Positions 47,166-63,943 of a DNA stretch of 64,000 bases are shown piece after piece (position 1 is the first letter of the stretch; every line of letters begins with the position of its first letter). The position numbers and the translations under genes are program-made. The stretch is from Methanotorris igneus Kol 5 (GTDB lineage: Archaea; AGJL01; Methanococci; Methanococcales; Methanococcaceae), in NCBI RefSeq assembly GCF_000214415.1, contig NC_015562.1:124001-188000 (forward strand). Reading direction: 5' to 3'. Under the pieces are notes generated by a model. It saw only the letters and a program-made list of their open reading frames with translations, was not told the DNA's origin and made no database searches.

Positions 47166-47321
47166 ATTCTCACCTTTATTTTTTAGTTTTTCTATATAAA
47201 AAATTTAAAAAGGGGCATTAATAATAATTTTTTTGGGCTGTTTCATAGATAGCAACAAGCGCAAAGTTTGTGTATTTTCGAGTAGAGTAATTTTTATATA
47301 TCATGAAATATTAATTATTTA

Positions 47322-47489
47322 TGACAGTACAGTCTCCGATATGTGGGGTCTTAAGCCCGAATGGAGACTGTTGAGAGCCTTGAAGATGTGGGGAGTTTCC
47401 GTTCCCCCCGAAAGCCACTCAATGAAGATGGGAGGGTGGAAGGTTATCCGCTACCACAGTTTCGTATGTTTCAAAAGTAGCGGATAACC
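47322..47489 (+). ncRNA. G+C-rich structured RNA candidate, possibly a TnpB-type omega RNA remnant
   Basis: A G+C-rich island in AT-rich DNA with a TATA-like TTTTTATATAT (47291-47301) ~25 bp upstream of the inferred start. Stems: CAGTCTCC/GGAGACTG (47330-47337 with 47363-47370), GGGGA/TCCCC (47390-47394 with 47403-47407) and a perfect 13-bp GGTTATCCGCTAC/GTAGCGGATAACC (47442-47454 with 47477-47489). One frame reads KPEWRLLRALKMWGVSVPPE, reminiscent of the divergent C-termini of archaeal TnpB proteins, whose genes end in the guide-RNA scaffold. It abuts a truncated V4R gene. No RNase P, SRP or tRNA signature seen. Confidence 0.5.
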
Positions 47490-47829
47490 AGAACGGATCA
47501 CTGGAAATTCAAAACTCTATTCTGCAGGAAAATATTTTGGAGAGCATTCAGGCATAGAATCATTTGAGGAATTGATAGAGTTTTTTGAAGTATATAAACT
47601 TGGGATTTTGGAGATTATTGAAGGAATACCTCTAAGGTTGAGGATTTATGAATGTGCAAATTGTGCTGGATTACCAAATATTGGAAAAAAGATTTGCTGT
47701 TTTGAAGCAGGATTCTTTGCAGGAGTTCTAAAGAATATTCTTGATAAAGATGTTCGTGTTGTAGAGGTTAAATGTTACGCATCAGGTGACGATTGTTGTG
47801 AATTTGAAGTTAGGATTTTAGATAAATAA
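47488..47829 (+). pseudogene. V4R-domain protein, C-terminal fragment
   Basis: The frame opens directly after the last stem of the RNA candidate (in-frame TAA at 47485-47487) and runs to 47829. V4R features: LYSAGKYFGEHSG, then IYECANCAGLPNIGKKICCFEAGFFAGVL and VKCYASGDDCCEFEV, with the conserved C/H residues thought to bind metal. No ATG lies at the beginning; a TTG at 47572 is the first plausible start and would skip the LYSAGK region. The N-terminal part of the domain is missing, as if replaced by the inserted G+C-rich sequence. Confidence 0.7.
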
Positions 47830-63830: not shown

Positions 63831-63943
63831 GTTTCCATCCTTGTTTTAATGGATGAGTAATTCAAACAGTTTGAATTGGTTTTTACTCTATAACCTTAGC
63901 ACTATTGTTTCCATCCTTGTTTTAATGGATGAGGTATTCAAAC
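63831..63943 (-). CRISPR. Two-repeat CRISPR locus
   Basis: Two 37-bp repeats (63831-63867 and 63907-63943) sharing GTTTCCATCCTTGTTTTAAT and ending TTCAAAC, separated by a 39-bp spacer. They differ only near GAGTAATTC versus GAGGTATTC. On the minus strand the repeat ends GGATGGAAAC, like type I-B repeats, so the leader should lie to the right, where AAATTTATATAGG (minus strand) could be the promoter. The first copy would then be the terminal, slightly degenerate repeat. No cas gene in the window. The remaining 63575-63830 is AT-rich with nothing else recognised. Confidence 0.85.

Follow-up and report, generated by a model that had tools for sequence, protein, structure and literature searches.

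A probable miniature IS607-type element carrying a TnpB guide-RNA scaffold in Methanotorris igneus Kol 5

IS607 elements are characterised by GG at their termini, a (G/C)GG target and an exchange at GG (PMC6188088). In one of them, ISXfa1, a pseudoknot at the element border is required in the TnpB guide RNA (reRNA), and the scaffold includes a fixed nucleotide of the flank (PMC10711439). The target motif of IS607 TnpB is GGG for ISXfa1 (PMC10711439) and AGGAG or GAGGG for the RAGATH-18 type (PMC11061315), the reRNA of which lies outside the tnpB coding sequence (PMC11061315). Among the PATEs of Haloquadratum walsbyi, one includes the C-terminal part of tnpB (PMC3119063). No guide-RNA-bearing IS607 mini-element was reported in the open papers searched.

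The window considered here is the whole stretch of 64,000 nucleotides of M. igneus that was analysed. It contains, at 47235-47496, what is very probably a miniature non-autonomous IS607 element carrying a TnpB guide-RNA scaffold. This degree of confidence applies to the identity of the element and does not include guide activity.

Copies, ends and origin of the element

The element and its ends were delineated as follows.

47235 to 47496, + strand: whole non-autonomous IS607-type element of 261 bp, with the outer crossover within GGG...AACGG placed to 1-3 nt
47235 to 47279, + strand: left end (GGGCTGTTTCATAGATAGCAACAAGCG...), with homology to that of IS607 elements which carry tnpA
47371 to 47496, + strand: 3' end of tnpB and right end, corresponding to the core guide-RNA scaffold, 90% identity to the tnpB 3' end of locus L116
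47492 to 47496, + strand: right terminus AACGG, also the 3' strand of the pseudoknot, holding the GG expected at IS607 termini
C1:860023-860283, 1641167-1641428, 1354030-1354290 and 107474-107736, all - strand: the other four copies of the element

Five copies with 95-98% identity are present in the genome of 1,854,197 bp, and only the window copy is on the + strand. They have a common start (GGGCTGTTTCATAGATAGCAAC) and a common end (GGATAACCAGAACGG), beyond which the flanks are unrelated. All five display the termini GGGCTG...AACGG, with GG and without terminal inverted repeats or target duplication, as is typical of IS607. The initial annotation had proposed an RNA candidate at 47293-47829 in a G+C-rich segment. 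The high G+C content was confirmed (about 0.53 in the element region against a background of 0.3), and the five copies together with covariation across species place the segment far beyond chance. The RNA candidate was retained with other bounds, as the unit starts further left and ends before the V4R gene. The annotation had also regarded the locus as a mere degraded leftover; this does not agree with the presence of both transposon ends, nor with five copies sharing their ends, two of which interrupt other ORFs. No serine-recombinase tnpA ORF was found within the 261 bp. Therefore, the element was only classified as a non-autonomous IS607 derivative.

Further traces were observed in the same genome. 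The copy at 1641167-1641428 (L019) directly follows the left end of a further IS607-like relic (GGGCTATTTCATAGATAGCAACAAACGAAATATTT...) and comes right after a 745-aa ORF resembling purL. A solitary left-end-like stretch occurs at C1:889945-889984 (L130), with no right end seen nearby. Two more diverged matches to the RNA model were detected at C1:1133058-1133173 and 938635-938694.

A search of relatives revealed a match to the right part of the element in a congener (G001), at the 3' end of a tnpB (L041) which is intact and encodes 404 aa. A protein search with this TnpB gave relatives in Thermococcus and other archaea, the best of which lie directly behind an IS607-type serine recombinase (NF033518, 3e-71); the partner protein is an RNA-guided TnpB (NF040570, 7e-55). 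Three parts of the element have counterparts in such tnpA+tnpB elements, in the same order: one in the left end ahead of tnpA, one in the tnpB codons for the Zn finger, and one in the 3' end of tnpB together with the right end. For the left end, the identity is 77-93% with the sequence upstream of IS607 tnpA in L114-L118 and the corresponding stretch in L122 and L124; for the 3' end it reaches 90% (L116, an intact Thermococcus tnpB). Since the three pieces occur in the same order, the element is, as judged from its sequence, an internal-deletion derivative of an IS607 element, from which tnpA and most of tnpB were removed. What remained is the left end, a promoter-like region and the guide-RNA region with all its structures (hairpins P1-P4 and the putative pseudoknot), including the right end.

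Several claims of the initial annotation are in line with this origin. The frame which it had compared to a TnpB C-terminus, ending in MWGVSVPPESHSMKMGGWKVIRYHSFVCFKSSG and a stop, indeed matches the C-terminus of intact TnpB, and the alignment with tnpB 3' ends that it had suggested identified those of L041 in the congener and of L116 in Thermococcus (90%). Its assignment to IS605 had to be abandoned: the serine recombinase of the cognate elements is of the IS607 type, and the left end matches that of these elements. The corresponding alternative, an IS605- or PATE-type element moved as single strands by a Y1 transposase, could draw on the near-terminal palindrome at the right end and on the Haloquadratum PATE with a tnpB C-terminal part (PMC3119063). 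It is considered very improbable, because no Y1 transposase (Y1_Tnp) was found in the own genome and the partner elements combine an IS607 TnpA with the same left end.

No tRNA was found in the region. Rfam returned nothing, neither at the gathering threshold nor at E<=5, with no match to RAGATH-18, so that the Rfam search proposed initially yielded no matching family; the archaeal IS607 scaffold is missing from the Rfam copy searched. The 3' ends of the resident tnpB genes, considered as possible parents, did not match the scaffold.

Structure and conservation of the guide-RNA scaffold

The following features were defined upstream of and within the scaffold.

47293 to 47300, + strand: TATA-like box TTTATATA, predicted transcript start at about 47322-47326
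47330 to 47370, + strand: P1 hairpin, CAGTCTCC (47330-47337) with GGAGACTG (47363-47370), inner stem GGG/CCC
47390 to 47409, + strand: P2 hairpin, GGGG (47390-47393) with CCCC (47406-47409), 99.0% of cells paired
47399 to 47403, + strand: pseudoknot strand CCGTT in the P2 loop, complementary to AACGG at 47492-47496
47415 to 47439, + strand: P3 hairpin, CCACTC/GGGTGG, three pairs changed on both sides
47442 to 47489, + strand: P4, a perfect 13-bp terminal hairpin, GGTTATCCGCTAC (47442-47454) with GTAGCGGATAACC (47477-47489), nine pairs changed on both sides

The fold energy amounts to -64.9 kcal/mol (z = -2.9), a value equalled by one of 200 shuffles, and the window scaffold scores 133 bits with the covariance model. 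Across 26 sequences, 96.7% of the cells of the core structure are paired and 13 pairs are changed on both sides. The core reached a covariation of 0.309, a value not attained in any of 500 shuffles (0.128), while slid versions gave about 0.08 or less. A compensatory C-G / G-C difference in P3 was found even between the five own copies. Complementarity of the pseudoknot strands is kept in 98.5% of cells, with so little variation that covariation says little about it; it is intact in the five own copies. Because AACGG can pair with the P2 loop, the scaffold extends 7 nt past 47489. The initial annotation had listed three strong stems: the perfect 13-bp stem was confirmed, and the count was raised to four stems plus a putative pseudoknot CCGTT/AACGG, which had been overlooked.

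Hairpin P1 is the remnant of the Zn-finger codons of tnpB (P-I-C-G-V-L-S-P-N-G) and also forms inside intact tnpB genes. Among 17 stand-alone copies, seven of its eight pairs are changed on both sides, and its covariation of 0.542 (0.180 in shuffles) may partly reflect descent from different tnpB parents. In the own copies and those of the f2 family, the first cysteine codon was changed from TGCCC to TCTCC or GTCCC, with matching letters in the opposite strand. This indicates that pairing of P1 outlived coding.

A TATA box of its own, as claimed initially, was recovered in form of the TATA-like box given above. A single match of this type is weak evidence, since single sequences in AT-rich DNA reach 8/8 in 4-12% of shuffles; in 12 stand-alone own and order-f2 copies, the best match was 8/8 at 27-41 nt before P1.

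The scaffold is homologous to the 3' end of intact tnpB, displays conserved stems and ends at the element border, as expected for a TnpB guide RNA. The sequence comparison thus supports the initial proposal of a stand-alone TnpB-type guide-RNA (omega/reRNA) locus derived from the 3' end of tnpB, with homology to the intact genes L041 and L116. In the archaeal IS607 clade to which these belong (L041, L114-L121), the scaffold was seen to overlap the tnpB coding sequence almost to its end.

The V4R gene remnant and other insertion sites

The sequences on both sides of the element were compared with the congener, which shows the same gene order.

47186 to 47235, + strand: left flank between amidohydrolase gene and element, for which the congener has about 250 bp more
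47497 to 47829, + strand: V4R-domain gene remnant lacking its N-terminal part (Pfam V4R, 2e-21)
47497 to 47516, + strand: would-be guide ATCACTGGAAATTCAAAACT (V4R coding sequence), positioned by analogy with IS607 reRNAs (PMC10711439)

The congener carries an intact V4R gene with a 182-aa open frame and 82% identity. In the window, the V4R frame begins with ITGNSK exactly at the element border. The lack of its N-terminus was thus correctly annotated at first, and its opening right after the last stem was corrected, as it opens at 47497. The initial annotation had named an intact V4R homologue starting within the G+C-rich segment as the contrary case; the orthologue of the congener has its own 5' part. 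The about 250 bp which hold this part in the congener are absent between the element and the amidohydrolase gene. The earlier picture of a beheaded V4R gene abutting the element was therefore kept, with the addition that the loss requires, besides the insertion, that about 250 bp were deleted. The missing 5' part, for which a search elsewhere had been suggested, was looked for in the genome and only a paralogue and weak hits were obtained, indicating that it was deleted and not moved. The last bases of the left flank, AATTTTTTTGGG, resemble the codons N-F-L-G preceding ITG in the orthologue. This suggests that the element inserted cleanly and that the upstream deletion came afterwards. The insertion together with this later or concurrent deletion would have destroyed the V4R 5' part.

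As the V4R frame comes immediately after the scaffold, the RNA could be considered as a cis-regulatory leader of the V4R gene or a fusion with it. The same element is found in five unrelated contexts, though, and the orthologue has a 5' part of its own. Just upstream, the frame entering V4R contains a stop (TAA), so that no full-length product would be expected; translation from the first usual start codon, TTG at 47572, would give 85 aa. Such a role in V4R expression is the least credible of the readings discussed here.

Two other copies each split an ORF, a SpoIIM-like one at 860023 and a Csx1-like one at 1354030; both Pfam matches are below the curated cut-offs, and no duplication was seen. 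Both ORFs regain their frame when 258 or 261 bp are taken out, and in the SpoIIM-like ORF removal of 258 bp also restores a glycine found in homologues. At the V4R junction, a unit of 259 bp fits, or one of 258 bp if a slip in a T-run is assumed. Strict GG exchange (PMC6188088) predicts 259 or 260 bp, compared to the 258 or 261 bp fitted at the two ORF insertions. One search of relatives for empty sites of the other four copies produced SpoIIM-like homologues and no exact empty site. The split Csx1-like CRISPR accessory ORF (L020, 1354030-1354290) adjoins a large ORF which, by eye, resembles Cas10. CRISPR repeats (Rfam CRISPR-DR7) are present at the end of the window (63831-63943, - strand).

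Proposed function and comparison with known systems

With the scaffold ending at 47496, the first base of a guide would be 47497 and belong to the V4R gene. The initial idea that the sequence behind the RNA, i.e. V4R, serves as guide was retained for a would-be guide, with the boundary moved from 47489 to 47496/47497. The G-rich left border fits the target motifs of IS607 TnpB by analogy, and its GGG may belong to the left end itself. For its mobilisation, the mini-element would depend on an IS607 serine recombinase acting in trans through GG exchange. From its own TATA box, the predicted RNA would start just before P1 and read across the right end into the flank, giving each copy a different guide. 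With a cognate TnpB in the cell, the ribonucleoprotein would be expected, from TnpB biology, to cut the matching empty site beside a G-rich motif, which would favour retention or spread of the element. The left ends of the four resident IS607 tnpA genes look different and their products share 47-49% identity with the partner TnpA; both were counted against present mobility.

The best TnpB of the own genome has 33% identity to the cognate one. In the absence of a close cognate, the RNA is probably an orphan. With the covariance model, 65 matches at E<=1e-4, the weakest of which may be due to chance, were obtained in 14 of 36 Methanococci genomes, and a close or recognisable cognate tnpB was found in only three of these: G001 and G029 have a close TnpB (85-100% identity) and G028 a broken one (41%). 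A tnpB reading frame was present at three of the 29 match sites inspected. All stems and the pseudoknot are kept in the five own copies and several others, with single mispairs at most. Other stand-alone copies have lost P2 or the pseudoknot and kept the terminal hairpin P4. The same damage to P2 (TTTCTTTTAAA) is seen in four of them (L048, L059, L061 and L172, from two genomes of the f2 family), as if the pseudoknot-free version had itself spread.

These data bear on whether the scaffold survives only by overlap with the right end on which TnpA depends, stand-alone copies giving a functionless RNA. This possibility, to which we give nearly even chances, is compatible with the identity of the element and competes only with the guide-RNA step. 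It is favoured by the lack of a close cognate TnpB in this genome and by the many stand-alone copies of other Methanococci without P2 and pseudoknot in which P4 and the terminus are kept; the latter indicate that the RNA is not under uniform constraint. It does not account well for P1, which is far from the terminus and, through compensatory changes, stayed paired when it no longer coded, nor for a pseudoknot preserved in all five own copies. In addition, IS607 exchanges double-stranded DNA, so that hairpins are not obviously needed in transposition.

The opposite case, an orphan RNA loaded by a resident TnpB (about 27-33% identical to the cognate) and active in trans in cutting or repressing targets, appears unlikely. 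The genome does have twelve OrfB_IS605 matches, and by eye the Zn-finger codons of resident tnpB genes look able to form a similar P1 hairpin. On the other hand, the mismatch between resident tnpB 3' ends and the scaffold argues against such loading, and no second target of ATCACTGGAAATTCAAAACT with fewer than three mismatches was found in the own genome, the best other site having three. For the window copy, the most likely state in this genome is that of an orphan, retained as right end.

For methanogens at large, it may be speculated, with some reserve, that IS607 mini-elements persist as selfish guide-RNA cassettes, which parasitise the TnpB of other elements in trans to cut empty sites. 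If so, their own promoter and full scaffold would make them guide-RNA parasites of nuclease-bearing transposons. A guide RNA of a TnpB system occurs in methanogens as a separate multicopy element, in most genomes without a close nuclease partner. This suggests that guide RNAs can spread alone, in the absence of the nuclease, and offers a natural test of trans action of such RNAs.

The closest relatives are the IS607 elements of Thermococcales with tnpA and tnpB (L114-L118), with which the mini-element shares the left end, the Zn-finger hairpin and the 3' scaffold with right end in the same order, as well as GG termini. It differs in lacking tnpA and most of tnpB, in being multicopy and stand-alone, and in having no close TnpB partner in the genome. 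Similarly to the IS607 reRNA of ISXfa1 (PMC10711439) and the RAGATH-18-derived reRNA of ISFba1 (PMC11061315), it combines stem-loops, a putative pseudoknot at the element border, a predicted guide from flanking DNA and a G-rich motif at the left border. In contrast to the RAGATH-18 reRNA, it has no Rfam match, the scaffold of its parents overlaps the tnpB coding sequence, and the mini-element is devoid of any tnpB. The omega RNA of the IS200/IS605 TnpB of ISDra2 also has a 3'-derived scaffold, a pseudoknot and a flanking guide, whereas transposase family, target motif and scaffold sequence are all different. PATEs of H. walsbyi such as HqIRS71 (PMC3119063) are likewise transposase-free mobile repeats related to a TnpB element; they are of IS605 type, while the mini-element described here is of IS607 type and carries a complete, covarying guide-RNA scaffold.
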